Below, piece after piece: positions 14,770 through 33,000 of a stretch of 64,000 nt of DNA. The stretch's first letter is position 1; every line of letters starts with the position of its first letter. This DNA comes from Hypericibacter terrae. Lineage in GTDB: Bacteria > Pseudomonadota > Alphaproteobacteria > Dongiales > Dongiaceae. The notes under the pieces are model-generated. The model searched no databases. It was not told the origin of the DNA and was given only the letters and a program-made list of their open reading frames with translations. The position numbers and the translations under genes were made by a program. The DNA is taken from contig NZ_CP042906.1 in NCBI RefSeq assembly GCF_008728855.1, positions 4,865,001-4,929,000 of the forward strand, in the 5' to 3' direction.

Positions 14770-15582
14770 ATGAGCCTTTCACCCAGCAGCCATTCTGGCG
14801 ACCCCGATCCGTCCTCCGGGCCCCCGGAGGCCCCGGCGCCCGCCGAGGGCGCCAGCGTCGATCCCGCCGAAATCGCCAAGTTCGAGGCCATGGCGGAGGC
14901 CTGGTGGGACCCGAGCGGCAAATTCCGGCCGCTGCACCGCCTCAATCCGGTCCGCCTTGCCTATATCCGCGACCAGGCCTGCCGGCGCTTCGGTCGCGAT
15001 GCCAAATCCCCGACCCCGCTGGAGGGCCTCGATCTCCTGGATATCGGCTGCGGCGGCGGCCTGCTCTCGGAGCCGATGGCACGGATGGGCGCCAAGGTCG
15101 TCGGCATCGACGCCTCGCACCGGAACATCGCCATCGCCGGTCTTCATGCCGAGCGCATGGGACTCGGCATCGACTATCGCTGCCAGACCGTGGAGGCCCT
15201 GGCCGACAGCGGCGAGCGCCGGTTCGATATCATCCTCAATATGGAGGTGATCGAGCATGTGGCCGACGTTGAAGGTTTCATGGCCGCTGCGGTCGGCCTG
15301 CTCAAGCCGGGCGGCATGATGATCGTCGCCACGCTCAACCGCACCGCCAAGAGCTACGCACTCGCCATCGTCGGCGCGGAATATCTGCTGCGCTGGCTGC
15401 CGCGGGGCACCCACGACTGGAAACGATTCCTGCGTCCCTCGGAGCTGGCGCATCTGATCGAGCGCGCCGGCGGGCATGTGCTGGCGCTGGAAGGGGTGGT
15501 CTATAACCCGTTAACCGACCATTGGAGCTTGTCGCGCGATCTTGGGGTGAACTATATGGCCCTGGCGGAAGCGATGCGCTGA
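14770..15582 (+). CDS. ubiG: Ubiquinone biosynthesis O-methyltransferase UbiG
   Basis: SAM-dependent enzyme that performs both O-methylations of ubiquinone synthesis at the inner membrane surface. Visible: [20 protein letters not shown] (about 37-56, the UbiG entry motif), SAM motif [20 protein letters not shown] (about 93-111), and the tail ...[12 protein letters not shown] and NYMALAEAM. The first 30 residues are a Ser/Pro/Gly/Ala-rich extension absent from the E. coli enzyme. ATG at 14770 with AAGGGAG upstream. The sulfotransferase-like array starts 27 bases downstream on the same strand and may share the transcript. Confidence 0.95.
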
Positions 15583-15609: not shown

Positions 15610-17091
15610 GTGGGGCGGGCGCCGACGGGGGAATTCTTGCAGGCACCGAAACCGATAACGGCACGCATGCGCGCACCCATGGGCGTGATGGTGTTCGGGC
15701 TCGCGCGCAGCGGCACCACGCTGGTGTCGGACCTGCTGACCATCCCCGGCCGCTCGATCGTCATCAGCGAGCCCGAGGTCTACAAGCAATGGAGCCGCGC
15801 CACCGCGGCGCGGGTTCATCGCCTGGCGCGCCTGGTCGGCCTCGATATCCCCGAAGCCCCGCCGGAACCCGACGCCTATGGCGGCGACTACCAGCGCTAT
15901 TTCGACGAGGTCATGCTGCCCGCCATGGGCAAGCTGCCGCTCTGGGGCATTAAGAATGTCGACTTCAGCGGCTGGCGCTTCCTGTTCAAGAACTACCCGC
16001 CGCAGCGGCTGATCCTGTGCGTGCGCGATCTGCGCGACACGGCGCTTTCGGGGCTCGACCGGATCTGCCGCCTCGGCATCACCTTTCGCGGCAGCGGCAG
16101 CGGGATCATGCGCGACGAAGCCTGGGTCCTGTCCGGGCTGGCCTACAGCGTGCATCAATTGATGGAGATGCAGAAGCGGCCCCACCTCCTGGTGCGCTAC
16201 GAGGATCTGGCCTCCGATCCGGATGCCCGCAAACGCATCGCCGACTATGTCGGTCTCGACCGGCTGCAGGAGGAACGGCTCAACATCAAGGCGGCGGAGA
16301 TGCGCCGCGCCTGGGAGATCGAGAAACATCAGGGCGGGATCGGAACGGCCTCGGTCGGGCGATTTGCCAGCGAGCCGCCGGGGCCCGCGAGAGCGCTGGC
16401 GGAACGCCTGTGGCGTCTCCTGCCGGAATATTCGCGAACCTTCGGCTATGAGGTTCCGCCGGCCGATCCGGCGCTATCGGATCACGATTTCGCGCTGCGG
16501 CGGCCCGCGGGCGCCGCTCCCATCGATTATCTCGACACCGAATCCTGGAGCTGGGACGGCCCCCACCAGTTCGAACCCAGCTTCGCCCAGCGGCGCGCGC
16601 GCATCGCCGTGGCCAAGGTCATTCCCGCAGGCGTCAAGGTGCTCGATCTCGGCACCGGCGCGCCCAGCCTCACCAGTCTCCTGCCCACCAAGGCCCCTCC
16701 CCTCCATGGCGACAGTGTCGCCCGCGCGCCGGGGTTCCTGGTCTCGGCCCTGCATCGCGGCGAGCTTCCACCGATCGGATCGGCGGATCTGATCGCGATC
16801 CTCGGCATGATGGAGCATGTCGAGGATCCCATGGCGCTGCTGACCCGGCTGGCCGGGACCGGCCGGCCGGTCGCGCTCAGCTATCACGCTGCCGACGACA
16901 CCGGAACGCTCGACCGCCGCCAGTTCGGCTGGGTCAATCACCTGACCCGCGCTGAGCTCGAAGCCGCCTTCGCCGCCGCGGGTTTCCGCTGCAAGGCCCA
17001 TTGGGCCTTCGACGGCCGCCAGAGCCTGTTCCATCTGACGCCACTCGCCGGCAGGAAATCGGCCGTTGCCGACAAGGCGCCCGCCCGATGA
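15610..17091 (+). CDS. Sulfotransferase-methyltransferase-like fusion, array copy 1
   Basis: First of four tandem paralogues. N-terminal half resembles PAPS-dependent sulfotransferases: P-loop-like GLARSGTTLVSDLL (about 30-43), 3'-phosphate motif ILCVRDLRDTALSGLDR (about 135-151) and LVRYEDLASDP (about 195-205). The C-terminal half resembles a class I SAM methyltransferase: VLDLGTGAPSLTSLLP (about 343-358), IAILGMMEHVEDP, and the array-specific motifs LSYHAADDT and WAFDGRQSLF. Start taken as GTG 15610 because AAGGG lies six bases before it; an ATG at 15667 would match the shorter heads of the other copies. Ends in a four-base overlap with copy 2. The acceptor substrate is unknown. Confidence 0.8.
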   Translation: MGRAPTGEFLQAPKPITARMRAPMGVMVFGLARSGTTLVSDLLTIPGRSIVISEPEVYKQWSRATAARVHRLARLVGLDIPEAPPEPDAYGGDYQRYFDEVMLPAMGKLPLWGIKNVDFSGWRFLFKNYPPQRLILCVRDLRDTALSGLDRICRLGITFRGSGSGIMRDEAWVLSGLAYSVHQLMEMQKRPHLLVRYEDLASDPDARKRIADYVGLDRLQEERLNIKAAEMRRAWEIEKHQGGIGTASVGRFASEPPGPARALAERLWRLLPEYSRTFGYEVPPADPALSDHDFALRRPAGAAPIDYLDTESWSWDGPHQFEPSFAQRRARIAVAKVIPAGVKVLDLGTGAPSLTSLLPTKAPPLHGDSVARAPGFLVSALHRGELPPIGSADLIAILGMMEHVEDPMALLTRLAGTGRPVALSYHAADDTGTLDRRQFGWVNHLTRAELEAAFAAAGFRCKAHWAFDGRQSLFHLTPLAGRKSAVADKAPAR

Positions 17092-18533
17092 CCTCGGCGA
17101 CGGGGCCGACCGATGCGCCGACCGGCATGGCGATCGCGATCATGGGCCTGATGCGGACCGGATCGACATTGATCACGGACATGCTGAGCCAGCGCGGCCG
17201 CAGCCTGATCCTGAGCGAGCCGAACATCCTCGGCATGTGGAGCCCGAACACCGTCGAGCGCATTCATCAGCTCGCGATCAACAACGGTCTCGATCCGGGC
17301 CCGGAGCTGGCGACCCCGGAGCGTTGGCTGCGCTATCAGAATTATTTCGATGCGGTGCTGCTGCCCCAGCTCGCGAAGCTGCCGCTCTGGGGCGTGAAAT
17401 ATGTCGACCTGACCGACTGGCGACAGACCTTCGAGCGTTATCCGCCCCGCCGCATGATCCTGACCGTGCGCGATCTGCGCGATGTGGTGATCTCGGCGAT
17501 CGATCGCATCGGCTATCTGAATCTCGCCTTCTATGGCCGGCGCTATATGCGCGACGAGGGCTGGGTGCTGACCAATATCGCCTACAATGTGCACGAGCTC
17601 ATGATCTTGCGGCAGCGGCCCCATCTGCTGGCGCGCTACGAAGACGTCGTGCGGGATCCGGAACTGCGCCAGCGCATCGTCGATTATGCGGGTCTCGAAA
17701 GCATGGCGGGGACGCGGGAGAATCTCGCCGCCGGCGGCTTCAGCCGGCAGTGGGAATTGAAGAAGCATGGCGGCACCGTCACGGCCCAATCGGTCGGCCG
17801 CTATGCGAGCGAGCCGCCGGGCCCGGTCAAGGCGCTGGCGGAACGGACCTGGCGCCTGTTGCCCGAATATTCGGAGACCTTCGGCTTCGAGCTGCCGCCG
17901 CCGGAAAGCTGGATCCGCGGCCACGAGTTTCAGCGCCAGCCCGGCAGCGACACCAATCCGATCGACTATCCCAAGAGCGAAAGCGGCCTTTGGCCGGGCC
18001 CGACCCGGCTCGAGCCCAGCTTCCAGCTCCGCCATGCCCGCCTTGCTCTCGCCAAGCGGCTGCCGGAGGGTGCCATGGCCATCGACCTTGCCTGCGGTAC
18101 GCCGGCGCTGTCGGCGATGCTGCCCAAGGGCCGGCGCCATATTCCGGTCGATATGGCCCAACGCGGCCAGCGCTACCGGGTGGCGCCCCTCCATGAAGGC
18201 AAGTTCCCCAAGGTTCCGGAGGCGACGATATTGCTGGCGCTCCATGTGCTGGAGTTCCTCGATGCCGATCTGCCGCGGCTGCTGCGCCGTCTCCGGCGCT
18301 ATGATCTGCCCATCGTCGCGACCTATCATGCGACCGAGGATACCGAAGGAGTCGATCGCGCGGCCTTGGGCTGGATCAATCATCTGAGCCGCGAAGCCCT
18401 GCTCGCCGCCTTCCGGCGGGCCGGCTTCGCGGTCCAGGCCCGCTGGAACGCCGACGGGCCGCAAAGCTTTTTTCATCTCCGGCCGATATCTGTCGAGAAG
18501 CCGGAATCACCGCCGCCTCCGGGGGTCGATTGA
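17088..18533 (+). CDS. Sulfotransferase-methyltransferase-like fusion, array copy 2
   Basis: Second paralogue, 481 residues. It begins at an ATG overlapping the stop of copy 1 (ATGA), which decides the start and implies coupled translation. The sulfotransferase-like part has MGLMRTGSTLITDMLS (about 19-34), ILTVRDLRDVVISAIDRI and LARYEDVVRDPELRQ. The SAM part is AIDLACGTPALSAMLP, where the usual Gly-rich loop is DLACG. Shared motifs LPIVATYHATEDT and ARWNADGPQSFFHL mark the C-terminus, but WAFDGRQSL of the other copies has drifted. After it come 76 bases with no gene before copy 3. Confidence 0.8.
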   Translation: MTSATGPTDAPTGMAIAIMGLMRTGSTLITDMLSQRGRSLILSEPNILGMWSPNTVERIHQLAINNGLDPGPELATPERWLRYQNYFDAVLLPQLAKLPLWGVKYVDLTDWRQTFERYPPRRMILTVRDLRDVVISAIDRIGYLNLAFYGRRYMRDEGWVLTNIAYNVHELMILRQRPHLLARYEDVVRDPELRQRIVDYAGLESMAGTRENLAAGGFSRQWELKKHGGTVTAQSVGRYASEPPGPVKALAERTWRLLPEYSETFGFELPPPESWIRGHEFQRQPGSDTNPIDYPKSESGLWPGPTRLEPSFQLRHARLALAKRLPEGAMAIDLACGTPALSAMLPKGRRHIPVDMAQRGQRYRVAPLHEGKFPKVPEATILLALHVLEFLDADLPRLLRRLRRYDLPIVATYHATEDTEGVDRAALGWINHLSREALLAAFRRAGFAVQARWNADGPQSFFHLRPISVEKPESPPPPGVD

Positions 18534-18609
18534 CAGGACCGGGGCGACTGTCGGAAGAGGGCGCGGGTCCCGCCTGGGGCGGACCGTCCCGAGTCGAGGC
18601 TTAAGGGGA

Positions 18610-20037
18610 ATGGCGGAAAAGAAACGCAACATGGGCGTCGCCGTGATGGGGCCGATGCGCAGCGGTACCACGCTCGTCGCCGACCTTCTGACCGTGCGCG
18701 GCCGCTCGCTGGTGTTGAGCGAGCCCAACTTGCTGGGCGCTTGGCATCCGACCCTCGCCGGCGCGATCCATCGCCTGGTCACCGATTTCGGGATCGAGGT
18801 GCCGCCCCCGCCGACGGAGAAGCCGCCGACCCGCATCTTCAATTATTTCGACCGCGCCATCCTGCCCGAGCTGCAGGGGTTGGATTTCTGGGGCGTGAAA
18901 TATGTCGACCTCTTCGGCTGGCAACAGCTCTTCCAGCGCTATCAGCCGCGCAAGCTGATTTTGTGCGTGCGCGATCTGCGCGAGGTCGCGATTTCTTCGA
19001 TCGAACTCGCCGAACGGATGAAGCTGGGTTTTCCGGGCGGCGCCCATATGCGCGACGAGGCCTGGATCCTGACCCGCCTGGCGCACAGCGTGCACGAGCT
19101 CCTGGCGCTGCGCCGGCTGCCCCATTTCGTCCTGCGCTATGAAGACCTGGTCGAGGATCCGAAGGTCCGCGAGCGGCTGGCGGACTATGTCGGCCTCGAT
19201 GAGCTCGGCACGGAACGGCTCAACCTGACGATCGAGCGCGATAGCCGGCATTCCTGGGAATCGCGCAAGCATGGCAGCGGCGTCACCAAGAAGGCCCTCG
19301 GCCGCTTCGAGCGCGAGCCACCGGGCCCGGTGCGCAATCTCGCCGAGCGGGTCTGGCGCCTGCTGGGCGAATATTCCGTCGCCTTCGATTATGAAGTGGC
19401 CGAGCCCAAGGCGCGGATCCAGGGCCATGATTTTTCGGCCCCCGCGCGGCCCGGCCACAACCCCGTCCCCTACATGAAGGGCGAGGAATGGAACTGGTGG
19501 GGGCCCAAGCAGCTCGAGCCCAGCTTCGCCCGCCGCCGCGCCCGCCATCTGGCCTCGATGAACATTCCCGAAGGCGCCGTCGTGCTCGATCTCGGCGGCG
19601 GCCTCAGCTCCATGATCACCGAGCTGCCCAAGGGCGGCCGGCTGATCCTCGCCGACGTGACGGAGCGCACGCCCCAGACCAAGGCCGCCGACCTGCTGCA
19701 GGGCAAGCTGCCGCCGAAGGGCGCCGCGACCTTCGTCCTGGCGCTCGAGATTCTGGAGCAGGTCGAGAATCCGGGGCGCTTCCTCAAGAACCTGCGCGGC
19801 TACGGGCTTCCGGTGCTGCTGAGCTATCACGCCACCGACGACACGGCCGATATCGATCGCGCGGCGCTCGACTGGCGCAGCCATCTGAGCCGCAGCCAGC
19901 TCCAGCGCGGCCTCGCCACCGTCGGCTTTCGCGTCACGGCAAGCTGGGCCTTCGATGGCCGGCAGAGCCTGCTGAAGCTGCGCCCCGTGCCAGTCCCGGC
20001 GCGCAAGGCGAGCGCCGCCACGGAGGGCGCGGCATGA
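18610..20037 (+). CDS. Sulfotransferase-methyltransferase-like fusion, array copy 3
   Basis: Third paralogue, 475 residues. Visible: MGPMRSGTTLVADLLT (about 13-28), GVKYVDLFGWQQLFQRY, ILCVRDLREVAISSIELA, FVLRYEDLVEDPKVRERL and, in the C-terminal half, VLDLGGGLSSMITELP, LALEILEQVENP, LLSYHATDDTADIDR and WAFDGRQSLLKL. The start is the ATG at 18610; AAGGGGA directly abuts it, a short spacing, so the ATG at 18631 (MGVAVMG) is also possible. Its stop overlaps the start of copy 4 (ATGA). Function as for copy 1: predicted sulfate transfer, with a methyltransferase-like partner domain of unknown activity. Confidence 0.8.
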   Translation: MAEKKRNMGVAVMGPMRSGTTLVADLLTVRGRSLVLSEPNLLGAWHPTLAGAIHRLVTDFGIEVPPPPTEKPPTRIFNYFDRAILPELQGLDFWGVKYVDLFGWQQLFQRYQPRKLILCVRDLREVAISSIELAERMKLGFPGGAHMRDEAWILTRLAHSVHELLALRRLPHFVLRYEDLVEDPKVRERLADYVGLDELGTERLNLTIERDSRHSWESRKHGSGVTKKALGRFEREPPGPVRNLAERVWRLLGEYSVAFDYEVAEPKARIQGHDFSAPARPGHNPVPYMKGEEWNWWGPKQLEPSFARRRARHLASMNIPEGAVVLDLGGGLSSMITELPKGGRLILADVTERTPQTKAADLLQGKLPPKGAATFVLALEILEQVENPGRFLKNLRGYGLPVLLSYHATDDTADIDRAALDWRSHLSRSQLQRGLATVGFRVTASWAFDGRQSLLKLRPVPVPARKASAATEGAA

Positions 20038-21578
20038 GCGCCGAAAAGGGCATGCCCATCAGGGTGCCCAATCGCGGCACGCCGATGGGCGTGGCGGTGA
20101 TGGGGCTGATGCGCACCGGCACCACGCTGGTCTGCGATCTCCTGACCCTGCGGGGCCGGTCGCTCGTCGTCAGCGAGCCCAATCTGCTGGCGCTGTGGGA
20201 CGGACCGCTGCAGCTCAAGATGAACCGGCTCTATCGCGAGTTCGGCCTCGACGTGCCTTCCTTGCCGCCGCGCGAAGGCGAGTACCGGTCGAACATCGAA
20301 TATTTCGACCAGACGATTCTGCCTCAGCTGAAATCGCTAGAGCTCTGGGGCGTGAAATGCGTCGATCTCTTCGGCTGGCAGCGGCTGCTGCGCATCTATC
20401 CGCCCAAGCGCCTGGTGCTCTGCGTGCGCGATCTGCGCGCGGTCACGATCTCGGCGCTCGAGCTGGTCAATCGCATGGGCCTGGTTTTCACCGATACGAA
20501 GCGCATGCGCGACGAAGCCTGGATCTTCTCGCGCATCGCCTACAGCGTGCAGGAGATGATGGCGATGCGCGCCGTGCCGCATATGGTGCTGCGCTACGAG
20601 GATCTCGTGGCGGAGCCCGCAGCGCGCGATCGCCTGGCCGCCTATTGCGGCCTCGACCGGCTGGGCGAGGAACGGCTCAATCTGGTGATCGAGCGCGAAA
20701 CCCGCTCGGGCTGGGAGCTTGCCAAGCATGGCAAGGAGATCACCACCAAGGCGCTCGATCGCTATGACGAGGAGCCGGAGGGTCCGATGCGGACCATGGC
20801 CGACCGGATCTGGCGGATGTTCCCCGAATATTCGCTGGCCTTCGGCTACGAGGTGCCGGCCCCCCGGTTCCGCATCCGGCGCCATGATTTCTGCATCGGG
20901 CCGGATCCAGGCATCAACCCGATCAAGTTCAAGGAGACCGAGGTCTGGAACTGGCGCGGGCCCAAGCAGCTAGAGCCCGTCTTCGGCCGGCGCCGCGCGC
21001 GCACCATCGTGGCGCTCAACCTGAAGCCCGGCGCCGTGCTGCTCGATCTCGGTTGCGGCACCGCCGCCATGCGCAAGATGCTGGCGAAATCCTCGAGCCA
21101 TCTGCCGGCCGACGTCGCCGTGCGCGCGCCGCTCTTCGTGGTCAGCGACATCTATCGCGGCGAGCTGCCGCCGGGTGGCGAGGCGACCCATGTCGCGGCC
21201 CTGGGCGTGCTCGAATATGTCGAGGATCTGCCGGGATTCCTGAACGGCCTGCGCGGCTACAACGTCCCGGTCTTCGTCAGCTATTACGCGACCGATGACA
21301 CGCCCAAGGTCGACCGCGTCTCGCTCGGCTGGAAGAACGGCTACCGGCGCAATGAGCTGATGCGCATGTTCATCGCCGCCGGATTCATGCCGACGCCGAA
21401 ATGGGCCTTCGACGGACAGCAGAGCCTGTTCCGCCTCATCCCCCGCCAGATCATGGCGCGCAAGCGCCGCCGCCCGCGCGCCAAGATCATCCTGCAGGGC
21501 GGACCGCGACCCGGCCCCGGCAAGAAACCCGCGCCGAAGCCGAAGGGAAAGTCGAAGAAAGAGCTGGAGCCGGTTTAG
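20034..21578 (+). CDS. Sulfotransferase-methyltransferase-like fusion, array copy 4, basic tail
   Basis: Fourth paralogue, 514 residues, starting at the ATG that overlaps the stop of copy 3. Motifs: MGLMRTGTTLVCDLLT (about 23-38), LVLCVRDLRAVTISALEL, MVLRYEDLVAEPAARDRL; then the best preserved SAM loop of the array, LLDLGCGTAAMRKMLA, with ALGVLEYVEDLPGFL, VSYYATDDT and WAFDGQQSLFRL. Unlike its neighbours it ends in about 45 extra residues rich in Arg, Lys, Pro and Gly (MARKRRRPRAKI..., PGPGKKPAPKPKGKSKK), which may bind an acidic polymer, membrane or nucleic acid. A terminator-like hairpin follows. Confidence 0.8.
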   Translation: MSAEKGMPIRVPNRGTPMGVAVMGLMRTGTTLVCDLLTLRGRSLVVSEPNLLALWDGPLQLKMNRLYREFGLDVPSLPPREGEYRSNIEYFDQTILPQLKSLELWGVKCVDLFGWQRLLRIYPPKRLVLCVRDLRAVTISALELVNRMGLVFTDTKRMRDEAWIFSRIAYSVQEMMAMRAVPHMVLRYEDLVAEPAARDRLAAYCGLDRLGEERLNLVIERETRSGWELAKHGKEITTKALDRYDEEPEGPMRTMADRIWRMFPEYSLAFGYEVPAPRFRIRRHDFCIGPDPGINPIKFKETEVWNWRGPKQLEPVFGRRRARTIVALNLKPGAVLLDLGCGTAAMRKMLAKSSSHLPADVAVRAPLFVVSDIYRGELPPGGEATHVAALGVLEYVEDLPGFLNGLRGYNVPVFVSYYATDDTPKVDRVSLGWKNGYRRNELMRMFIAAGFMPTPKWAFDGQQSLFRLIPRQIMARKRRRPRAKIILQGGPRPGPGKKPAPKPKGKSKKELEPV

Positions 21579-21643: not shown

Positions 21644-22111
21644 CTAACTATCCTGCCGCGGCACCCAGGGCACGCGGGCGAACTCGATGCCTTCCTCGTC
21701 CAGCGCCTCGGCTTCCTCGGCGCTGGTCTCGCCATAGATGCCGCGCGCCTCGGCCTCGCCGTAATGGATCTTGCGGGCCTCTTCCGCGAATCCCGGCCCG
21801 ACATAGTCGCAATTGGCTTCGATTTGCCTGCGCATCTCGCGCAGCATCTGCACGGCCTTCATCTCCGCCTGCTGTACCGGCGGAACCGGGGCCGGCGACG
21901 GCACCGGCAGGTTCGCCGTGTCGAGCTTTTCGGATTTGCTGCGCGCGGCTTTGCCGATGCGCGGCGCCATCATGGCCTTCTCGATCCGACGATTGCCGCA
22001 AACCGGACAGACGAGCTTCCCGGCCTTGGTCTGGGTCTCGAAACCCTTACCGTCGCGAAACCACCCTTCGAAATGGTGGTCCTTTTGGCATCTGAGTTCG
22101 AACAGGATCAT
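21644..22111 (-). CDS. DUF1178 family protein
   Basis: A 155-residue cytosolic protein of unknown function that is widespread in Proteobacteria. The family head is distinct: MILFELRCQKDHHFEGWFRDG, followed by a CPVCG knuckle (about 35-39) which, with Cys8, could bind a metal ion. Then SxxIxKAMMAP-like KAMMAPRIGKA and the C-terminal VGPGFAEEARKIHYGEAEARGIYGETSAEEAEAL. In some proteobacterial genomes it lies near the Nit hydrolase and glutaredoxin genes, which are about 3.5 kb away here. Confidence 0.88.
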   Translation of the reverse strand: MILFELRCQKDHHFEGWFRDGKGFETQTKAGKLVCPVCGNRRIEKAMMAPRIGKAARSKSEKLDTANLPVPSPAPVPPVQQAEMKAVQMLREMRRQIEANCDYVGPGFAEEARKIHYGEAEARGIYGETSAEEAEALDEEGIEFARVPWVPRQDS

Positions 22112-30283: not shown

Positions 30284-30514
30284 AGACCCCCTCGTCCGAC
30301 TGCCTCGATGCCGAGCCAAGATTAGAAGCTGTGAGCTGAGCGCATAATCCGGGTCACTAAAGATGAACCCGGGCCCGCAAACCCTATTGCAGGGCCTCCG
30401 ACCGAATTTCTGAGCTATTGCGCGTTGGAGTTGCGCTGGTAACGTGGCAGTGGCTCCCAGAGTCGCGGTGGGAGGGGTTATTCAGAAATATGTACTGGCT
30501 CGAAAGGACAATAG

Positions 30515-31384
30515 ATGCGGGGGCTAGAGATACTTGCGCGCTCGCTCAGCGTCGCAACAACTGGTAGCCCGCTCGGCAGCCCATTCAAGTATGAGAATGC
30601 TTGGCAATATCATCCAAGAAGCGATCGTCATTCTAAGATTGCCTGCTGGGCAATCATGCTGGATTTGCTGAATGAATCGCCGCTGCTTCGCCAGCACGCG
30701 GAGAATGGCAAAATCAGATTTGGCATCAACCATGAGATGACGGATTTTGCTCGCAGCAGAAAGAAGAATCTCGACATGGTCATCTGCCGAGGTTCTTCTG
30801 CCCAGCCGCTCGCCGGCGCAGGAACGTTTTCTAGCCTTCGAGACGTATACAGAATCGAGCTCAACTCTGCCGATCTGAAATGCCTTGCGAAGCTTCCCGA
30901 TATTCCCTTGGCAAAACCATCGACGGTGCTTGTCGCGTTAGAAGCAAAAGCCTGCATGACAGAATTCGGGAAGGCCAGGCCCCGGCTATATGATGAACTG
31001 AACAGTTCGCATCTCACCATACATGGAGACTCGGCCAGTGCTATCGCCGCGGGGTTCTCCATGGTCAACATTGCAGATAGCTTTGTTTCTCCGCTACGCA
31101 ATCATTGGCTTATTGGCACTCAGCCGACAGCGGTTTCACAACATAGGCAGCCACACGCGGCTCAGAGTATTGTCGACAAACTCATGCAACTTCCTCGGCG
31201 TTCCAACTCTAACACCGAGGGTTTCGATGCCTTTGCGATTGCCGTTGTGAGGTGCCCCAACGATGGCTCGCCTGTTACGCTTCATGACGCCCCGCCCGCC
31301 CCCCAGCCGGGTGACGTGTATAACTATGCGGGATTCATTGGTCGACTAGCGCATCTCTATGCCACGCAATTTTCCAGTATCTGA
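30515..31384 (+). CDS. Putative restriction endonuclease (unrecognised, PD-(D/E)XK-like)
   Basis: I do not recognise this 289-residue family. What can be seen: Asp87 in KKNLDMVICR and, 55 residues on, Glu143 and Lys145 in VALEAKACMTEFGKA, each at the end of a hydrophobic strand; that is the D...ExK arrangement of PD-(D/E)XK nucleases. There is no signal peptide and no membrane span. It converges on a DNA cytosine methyltransferase with a 28-base overlap, and a Vsr nuclease follows, so a role as the cutting partner of that methyltransferase is the best inference. Base composition is low for the window (31 of 60 G+C in a sample). AAGGA lies seven bases before the ATG. Confidence 0.6.
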   Translation: MRGLEILARSLSVATTGSPLGSPFKYENAWQYHPRSDRHSKIACWAIMLDLLNESPLLRQHAENGKIRFGINHEMTDFARSRKKNLDMVICRGSSAQPLAGAGTFSSLRDVYRIELNSADLKCLAKLPDIPLAKPSTVLVALEAKACMTEFGKARPRLYDELNSSHLTIHGDSASAIAAGFSMVNIADSFVSPLRNHWLIGTQPTAVSQHRQPHAAQSIVDKLMQLPRRSNSNTEGFDAFAIAVVRCPNDGSPVTLHDAPPAPQPGDVYNYAGFIGRLAHLYATQFSSI

Positions 31385-32517
31385 CGAGGCATCTCGACAT
31401 TTCCAAGATGCGCTTCCACAGCAGGGATGAACCCTTCTGGAAATCGCAATGTCGCAATACGCGTGCGAGACAGGAAACCCGACGTGGCTCGAACGCTTAA
31501 CGGCGTTCCGGAATGCATTAGAAAGTCGGCCAGCGGGTCGGGACGCACTCCAATCGGATCGGTACCAACGCCCACGCTATGCCGTCGCACCCCGTCAAAT
31601 CGGGCTGCGCGCGGCAATTTTCCTTGTTCGGGAAAGGCGCCATCAAGAAGACGATCGTACTGGCCCGGCCTAGCCAATCGGTCGCCAACCCACTTGGATA
31701 CGGGAACACTCACAGCGCTCCCAACCAGTCCCCAACGAAATCCAGGGCGAACGACATTTTCCGCAGGACTCGTCCATTCCTCGGAAAACCCCTGGAGTCT
31801 CTCTGCGTCTCGAATATCTGGTTTGATGATCTGCCCATTTGGTAACAGCACCGCAGGGGGAGAAGGAATCCCTATTGTTGAGCCGTTCTTTAGCGTAGGT
31901 ACCGCATTGGCAGCCCAACCAAGGCCTCCTCGGCCTTCGGTCCAATAGAACCCGTGCGCGATTCTTCCCAGCGCGGTCTTTGGCCTTTCCAATGGAGAGT
32001 CCTCAGCCAGGAGCACGTTGGCTGGATCTCCTTCGCGCGAAGCGAGCAAAAAAACGCGCTCGCGCCGATGTGGCAATCCGAATCCAAATGTATCGACCAC
32101 GCGCCACGCCCAAAGATAGCCCAGTTCCTCAAGGGCCGCAGTGATCCGGCGCATAGCATCGCCGCCGCGAAGCTGAAGCATGAATGGAACGTTCTCGAGC
32201 AATATCCACTTGGGCCGCGCGATCGAGGCCAGCCGGAAAACCTCGCCGACCAGCCCGCTTCGACTTCCATCGAGCCCCTTGGTCATGCCGGCTTGGCTCA
32301 GATCCTGGCAAGGAAACCCCGCCGCGATCAGATCTGTTCCGCCTGGCAAGTCCCGCAGTGCCCGAACATCACCTTGGAGCTCGATATTCGGAAAACGATG
32401 CGAAAGGACGGCGCGCGCAGCGGGCAGAATTTCAGACATCAGGACCGTCTCATGGCCTGCTTCCGACAGCCCAAGCTCCAGTCCCCCAATTCCCGCGAAC
32501 AGCCCAACAGTCCTCAC
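31357..32517 (-). CDS. DNA (cytosine-5) methyltransferase
   Basis: Methylates cytosine at C5 in a specific DNA site, protecting it from a matching restriction enzyme. The 386 residues show motif I VGLFAGIGGLELGL (about 4-17), motif IV GFPCQDLSQAG with catalytic Cys70, motif VI WILLENVPFML (about 104-114), motif VIII LPHRRERVFLLAS and a C-terminal motif X-like region (GLVGSAVSVPVSKWVGDRL), with the variable target-recognition part before it. A further 120 residues after motif X are unusual and of unknown purpose. It follows vsr by 75 bases on the same strand. The recognition site cannot be read from sequence. Confidence 0.93.
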   Translation of the reverse strand: MRTVGLFAGIGGLELGLSEAGHETVLMSEILPAARAVLSHRFPNIELQGDVRALRDLPGGTDLIAAGFPCQDLSQAGMTKGLDGSRSGLVGEVFRLASIARPKWILLENVPFMLQLRGGDAMRRITAALEELGYLWAWRVVDTFGFGLPHRRERVFLLASREGDPANVLLAEDSPLERPKTALGRIAHGFYWTEGRGGLGWAANAVPTLKNGSTIGIPSPPAVLLPNGQIIKPDIRDAERLQGFSEEWTSPAENVVRPGFRWGLVGSAVSVPVSKWVGDRLARPGQYDRLLDGAFPEQGKLPRAARFDGVRRHSVGVGTDPIGVRPDPLADFLMHSGTPLSVRATSGFLSRTRIATLRFPEGFIPAVEAHLGNVEMPRQILENCVA

Positions 32518-32592
32518 GCTAGTCTCCTCTGGTGGTTCAATATATTGGGGGTGTCATGCGCCAAAACGCAAGATGTAGGCGGTATCCTAAAA

Positions 32593-33000
32593 TCAATGCG
32601 TTAGCAGCCTTCGAAGCCGCCGCTCCAACAAAGGAATATTCCGAGTTTCGCACTCCCAGATGGCATAAACGTTCCATGAATCTCTCTTAAGTTGTAGCTT
32701 GACCCTAGCATCTCGTTCTCGATTTGTCTCGATCTTTTGTAGCCAAAAATCGGTTCTTGTCTTGGGTATGGTCGCTAGGCGACAGCCCCGGTGGCCGTGC
32801 CAAAAACAACCGTGCACCAGAATGACTTTACGCAGCCGTGGAAAGACCACGTCCGGTGTTCCTGGAAGATCTCGTCTGTGGAGACGAAATCGATAGCCGA
32901 GTCGATGGGCAAGCCGCCGAACGATCAGCTCCGGGGTCGTGCCCTTCTGCCGGACACGACCCATGAGTGCGCTGCGCCGCTCTCTTGAGAGAGTGTCCAT
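32593..33000 (-). CDS. vsr: Very short patch repair endonuclease
   Basis: Nicks DNA next to T:G mismatches that arise when 5-methylcytosine deaminates, so it repairs damage caused by the adjacent methyltransferase. The 135 residues carry DLPGTPDVVF with the catalytic Asp50, and VHGCFWHGH with His63 and His68 one position off the E. coli numbering, plus the basic head RSALMGRVRQKGTTPE. It is the first gene of the vsr - methyltransferase pair and has the lowest GC of the region (27 of 60 in a sample), a sign of transfer. Confidence 0.94.
   Translation of the reverse strand: MDTLSRERRSALMGRVRQKGTTPELIVRRLAHRLGYRFRLHRRDLPGTPDVVFPRLRKVILVHGCFWHGHRGCRLATIPKTRTDFWLQKIETNRERDARVKLQLKRDSWNVYAIWECETRNIPLLERRLRRLLTH

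Follow-up and report, generated by a model that had tools for sequence, protein, structure and literature searches.

A tandem array of putative sulfotransferases with a methyltransferase-derived C-terminal half in Hypericibacter terrae

The array and its borders

The window analyzed here is a stretch of 64,000 nucleotides from the genome of Hypericibacter terrae (G000). Between positions 15667 and 21578, it contains four genes in tandem on the forward strand, each encoding a fusion of a sulfotransferase and a methyltransferase-fold domain. The array and its borders comprise the following features:

14770..15582, + strand: left border, gene reading as ubiG (named by reading rather than by a family search)
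15667..17091, + strand: gene 1, sulfotransferase and methyltransferase-fold fusion, 474 aa, ATG start
17088..18533, + strand: gene 2, fusion of 481 aa, overlapping gene 1 by ATGA
18610..20037, + strand: gene 3, fusion, 475 aa
20034..21578, + strand: gene 4, fusion of 514 aa, overlapping gene 3 by ATGA
21453..21575, + strand: C-terminal tail of gene 4, rich in Lys, Arg, and Pro, about 41 residues (from the alignment)
21644..22111, − strand: right border, conserved gene of 155 aa with a homologue in all 17 genomes of the order

The original prediction of four same-strand fusion genes in tandem agrees with our re-reading, which yielded products of 474, 481, 475, and 514 residues and placed the first start at the ATG at 15667; the originally noted position 15610 is a GTG in the same frame. 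Also the two predicted ATGA overlaps are present, at positions 17088–17091 (genes 1 and 2) and 20034–20037 (genes 3 and 4), and 76 bases separate the two gene pairs. Promoter-like sites were not found, and terminator-like sites (five versus 3.8 expected) gave no usable signal. Genes 2, 3, and 4 share 46%, 47%, and 47% identity with gene 1, and a profile built from all four detects no further site in the same genome at E ≤ 0.001 (the four themselves score E 1e-250 to 1e-262). According to the alignment, the basic, proline-rich tail of gene 4 also ends the protein at position 4 in two other genomes (G001 and G002), where, as in the window, it could hold an acidic product or a membrane surface.

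The array had been predicted to follow ubiG directly. The ATG of gene 1 indeed lies 84 bases past the end of the putative ubiG, but this adjacency is probably incidental, because the junction is empty in 5 of the 17 genomes of the order. The ubiG-like gene, like the right-border gene (which reads as DUF1178), has a homologue in all 17 genomes. The two genes face each other with 27–145 bases between the matched segments in G004, G005, G007, G008, and G010, and lie about 1.1 kb apart with another ORF between them in G003 and G012 (ORFs named by reading only), where the one weak profile match at the junction (E 4e-4) is probably to the neighboring ubiG. They are non-adjacent in seven genomes of one genus, which are drafts, and enclose the array in three. 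The array was thus either gained at the ubiG/DUF1178 junction or lost from it, and both border genes are probably outside the array's system. A functional link between the array and ubiG, which had also been considered, is unlikely, because other genomes of the order have the border genes without an array between them.

Elsewhere in the window, a stretch of low GC content (positions 30500–33000; 0.52–0.61 versus about 0.67) looks like an acquired restriction-modification island, judging from ORFs whose reading suggests a C5 DNA methyltransferase (31357–32517, − strand) and a Vsr-type endonuclease (32593–33000, − strand). A further ORF in the same stretch (30515–31384, + strand) received no name by reading.

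Distribution and history of the fusion

A listing of the genomes that carry the fusion yielded 19 full-length copies in nine genomes, six of which are single-copy. Only three genomes, all of the window's family, were found to carry tandem arrays; they are also the 3 of 17 genomes of the order with full-length copies, with four genes in G000, four in G001, and five in a row in G002. Among the 385 genomes of the class sample, full-length copies are present in G000 and G222 and a broken remnant in G351, and among the 398 genomes of the phylum sample, only the window's genome has the fusion; copy count and frequency in both samples are lower bounds, as at most four candidates were scored per genome. 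The 24 genomes of the order of G222 contain the fusion only in G222 itself, whereas in the order of G351 (16 genomes), fusions are present in G776, G786, and G787, in addition to the remnant. A scan of named genomes returned three loci, one on the same contig as the array of G002 (L031), one in an alphaproteobacterial assembly (L032), and one in an assembly labeled Gammaproteobacteria (L033). Plasmids gave no match, and a pattern-limited search of viral contigs gave none that was confirmed. In the remnant of the single-copy fusion in G351 (L079, 9239–9851), part of the N-terminal end directly adjoins most of the C half, but the two are in different frames; the remnant neighbors a gene reading as argG, at a site where G776, of the same genus, carries a complete copy.

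In two of five genomic settings, the fusion has genes for glycosyltransferases or sulfotransferases as neighbors: it lies beside three glycosyltransferases and a Sulfotransfer_3 protein in L032, and beside a Sulfotransfer_2 protein, two proteins reading as TPR sulfotransferases, and a methyltransferase in L033. In the other three settings (the window's family, f35, and G222), no glycan gene adjoins the fusion. The f35 loci L132 and L133 (G776 and G787) have argG, the fusion, and an isochorismatase-like gene in this order on one strand, and the third (L134), whose contig begins at the fusion, has the fusion followed by the isochorismatase-like gene. In G222, a hydantoinase gene is located downstream of the fusion.

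In phylogenetic trees of 16 and 19 rows, positions 1, 2, 3, and 4 of the array each form their own clade over G000, G001, and G002 (support 99–100/97–100), which places the duplications before the split of these lineages. The array members are separated from the single-copy members with support of 98/97 (16 rows) and 93/92 (19 rows). Given the orthology of the four positions across three genomes, the array is old and has been maintained. It does not speak for the expanding family originally envisaged, and a fifth array copy is present only in G002. The deeper groupings, which unite positions 1 and 2 (support 84/92) and positions 3 and 4 with the extra copy (85/96 and 89/97), are not firmly supported; they fit two rounds of duplication and the presence of two overlapping pairs in the present sequence.

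Purifying selection acts on both halves of the proteins. In the comparison of G000 with G001, the dN/dS values of positions 1–4 are 0.27, 0.16, 0.07, and 0.16 for the N half and 0.35, 0.19, 0.23, and 0.18 for the C half, which is kept less strictly than the N half in all four positions.

Domain structure of the fusion proteins

The predicted two-domain make-up is backed by Pfam for the N half, where all four window proteins exceed the cut-off of a sulfotransferase family, and by the model of gene 3 for the C half. Sulfotransfer_3 (cut-off 27 bits) matches genes 1, 2, and 4 with 36.9, 38.7, and 34.4 bits, and Sulfotransfer_1 (cut-off 22 bits) matches gene 3 with 26.6 bits. When the N half of gene 3 is modeled by itself (pLDDT 88), every one of the 24 PDB matches with E ≤ 0.001 is a sulfotransferase, although the TM-scores are modest (0.35–0.59); the sulfotransferase domain of curacin biosynthesis ranks first, tyrosylprotein sulfotransferases come next, and the olefin synthase domain is sixth. 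A sequence search found no close solved relative (best E 0.068).

Residues G14, R17, G19, T21, E38, K97, R121, S129, H172, Y177, E178, D179, and R232 are identical in all 19 fusions, in which 39 of the 284 positions of the N half are invariant; they include the 5'-phosphosulfate loop (R17, G19, T21) and the 3'-phosphate site (R121, S129). By analogy with tyrosylprotein sulfotransferase, E38 would presumably be the general base and K97 presumably stabilize the leaving group. The spacing of 21 residues from R17 to E38 is also that of the two TPR sulfotransferases beside the fusion in L033. Cofactor motifs, fold, and R-to-E spacing are common to the N half and the Sulfotransfer_3/_1 family, the CurM domain (4gbm), and the tyrosylprotein and TPR sulfotransferases; unlike these PAPS sulfotransferases, the window proteins carry a methyltransferase-derived C half and stand in tandem. 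Fold and motifs suggest that the N halves are PAPS-type sulfotransferases and would transfer sulfate. All 17 genomes of the order encode APS kinase, whether they have the array or not, which indicates that PAPS can be made but does not provide a link to the array.

In the C half, the scores of Methyltransf_23 remain below the curated cut-off of 27 bits in all four genes (25.8, 15.5, 23.7, and 14 bits; E 1e-5, 0.015, 4e-5, and 0.044 for genes 1–4). The AlphaFold model of the whole gene-3 protein has a mean pLDDT of 89, and nearly all of its 50 listed PDB matches are methyltransferases or methyltransferase-fold proteins, in line with the Rossmann-type fold originally proposed. Homology to gene 3 suggests that the C halves of genes 1, 2, and 4 have the same fold. 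Fold and strand order are shared with class I SAM methyltransferases and Methyltransf_23. The whole-protein matches include ApiI, titled a Diels-Alderase with SAM bound, which would be a precedent, by analogy, for the reuse of a methyltransferase fold.

As had been expected, no Pfam or NCBIfam model spans the full-length protein, and no NCBIfam model fits any of genes 1–4. NoeE (an NCBIfam equivalog) matches gene 1 with 10.3 bits (cut-off 500), with no match listed for genes 2–4. A full-text search of the open literature found no paper on a sulfotransferase–methyltransferase two-domain protein. As far as these searches show, the pairing of these domains, each of a known kind, is real, rare, and so far undescribed in open papers.

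Domains of the same family as the C half occur as mobile methyltransferase domains in other alphaproteobacteria (L080–L089; profile E 1e-19 to 1e-38), where they are joined to FkbM methyltransferase, polysaccharide pyruvyltransferase, or TPR proteins. Here as in the fusions, the domain is attached to other modifying enzymes, but the partner is never a sulfotransferase. FkbM methyltransferase domains were identified by Pfam in L083, L086, and L088, and pyruvyltransferase domains by Pfam in L081 and by reading in L080 and L089. In L082 (6261–9096; G183), the methyltransferase domain is present twice in each of two neighboring genes, with a degenerate first copy.

Erosion of the SAM site and possible roles of the array

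Conservation of the SAM site was scored at four residues (acid 327, G331, D349, and D361; numbering of gene 3) in the 19 fusions and in a canonical comparison set of 11 related domains with other partners from nine genomes. A strict five-residue signature that included G329 was abandoned because phenylalanine, alanine, and cysteine at this position occur in working methyltransferases, and G329, whose variants are partly functional and partly doubtful, was left out of the count. All four residues are kept in each of the 11 canonical domains, which also retain the canonical motif (D-G-G, D, D-L-N), although they are the more divergent set (mean identity 33% versus 44% for 16 fusions). By contrast, the site is complete in 9 of the 19 fusions, including window genes 3 and 4 and the three of f35, whereas at least one residue is missing in the other 10, including window genes 1 and 2, which have alanine and proline, respectively, in place of the acid at position 361. 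The C half was originally taken for a SAM methyltransferase throughout; this view is supported for the fold, but the notion that every C half is at work is not supported as stated, as genes 1 and 2 lack an acid that is present in all canonical domains.

The losses are unevenly distributed. Of the 19 fusions, 18 retain acid 327, 16 retain G331, 18 retain D349, and 12 retain D361. Cysteine, valine, or threonine replaces G331 in L032, L033, and L078; D361 is missing from L078 as well as from the first two positions of each of the three arrays, and D349 is missing from position 3 of G002. Parsimony requires a minimum of 1, 2, 1, and 2 changes at positions 327, 331, 349, and 361, i.e., at least six in total. 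N363 is absent from all fusions but present in 10 of the 11 canonical domains. Erosion of the SAM site is not confined to the fusions, as initially assumed, because the two degenerate first-domain copies of L082 also miss part of it. When these copies are included, the site is impaired in 10 of 19 fusions and 2 of 13 related domains (Fisher p 0.06, with rows that are not independent); without them, the ratio is 10 of 19 to 0 of 11 (Fisher p 0.004, which for related rows is only a guide). The contrast between fusions and related domains is suggestive, and the uneven loss of the SAM site appears as a pattern of moderate strength.

Other residues of the C half are frozen in the fusions. Of the 191 positions of this half, 17 are invariant; D411, R428, G450, and Q452 are identical in all 19 fusions but present in only 2, 3, 2, and 5, respectively, of the 11 canonical domains. 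Together with P299, F306, A311, R312, and P459, they are among the residues that are frozen in the fusions but not in their relatives, many of which follow strand 5 (D411 to R428) or belong to the last hairpin (G450, Q452). Scores below the curated cut-off, an incomplete SAM site in 10 of 19 members, and these fusion-specific residues set the C half apart from Methyltransf_23.

The damage to the SAM site in several members and the broken single-copy remnant in G351 might be taken as signs of a decaying array whose inactive paralogues are kept by chance. Given the open reading frames, the invariant sulfotransferase residues, dN/dS values well below 1 for both halves in all four positions, and a gene order conserved in three genomes, such decay is very improbable.

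The explanation that we tentatively favor is that the proteins are PAPS sulfotransferases whose methyltransferase-derived C half now mainly binds or positions the acceptor, with methylation possible at positions 3 and 4. All four would be cytoplasmic, PAPS-dependent members of a single two-domain subfamily, in which the N half transfers sulfate and the C half stems from a mobile class I methyltransferase domain. The SAM pocket would be weakly constrained and repeatedly damaged, while other residues of the C half became frozen. The retention of all SAM-site residues in 9 of 19 fusions, window genes 3 and 4 among them, makes a working methyltransferase possible for half of the family, and positions 3 and 4 may still methylate. 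The array would then provide sulfation at four sites or stages and methylation at up to two. Because the four positions are maintained as separate orthologues, they would have fixed, different specificities. A bolder and somewhat less probable version holds that the methyltransferase domain has turned into a non-catalytic acceptor-binding arm, and that four to five enzymes with position-specific acceptors, retained in a fixed order within a small alphaproteobacterial family, constitute a built-in sulfation code for one product.

It is possible, though rather unlikely, that all four proteins are bifunctional and place a sulfate and a methyl group on the same or neighboring hydroxyls of one acceptor, with the changes in the SAM site being tolerated. 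The two halves always occur together in the 19 proteins and are both under purifying selection, confidence in the predicted methyltransferase fold is high, D349 and acid 327 are lost only once each, and the outside domains beside FkbM-type methyltransferase or pyruvyltransferase domains have an intact SAM site. Moreover, Nod factors are sulfated and methylated on the same sugar by NoeE, a fucose sulfotransferase, and the methyltransferase NoeI, which share the idea of a doubly modified sugar with the fusions but are encoded by separate genes. Such bifunctionality is difficult to reconcile with the SAM-site losses described above (G331 in three fusions, D361 in L078 and at the first two positions of every array, D349 at position 3 of G002) and with Methyltransf_23 scores below the cut-off in all window proteins.

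The likeliest acceptor of the proposed sulfotransferases would be a cytoplasmically synthesized saccharide or lipid-linked glycan, and the surface polymer suggested by the original prediction is a possible substrate. Alternatively, the array might make or tailor a small secreted metabolite or lipid, such as a sulfated lipid or polyketide, instead of a surface glycan. The best fold match of the N half, a domain of curacin biosynthesis (and, in sixth place, that of an olefin synthase), would agree with such a product, as would the absence of glycan genes next to the array, judged from the window ORFs that were read. However, a rank in a fold search does not fix the acceptor, genes of a polyketide or other pathway were likewise not recognized beside the array among the window ORFs (by reading only), and domains related to the C half are joined to, or found near, pyruvyltransferase, FkbM, and TPR proteins, which makes a small metabolite or lipid an unlikely product.

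Bacterial sulfotransferases are numerous, but the acceptors of only few are known. If the favored explanation is true, the fusions would represent a case in which acceptor recognition was recruited from another enzyme, with the sulfotransferase site frozen and the SAM site eroding. By pairing damaged positions 1 and 2 with intact positions 3 and 4, the array would allow a direct comparison of both states in one organism.
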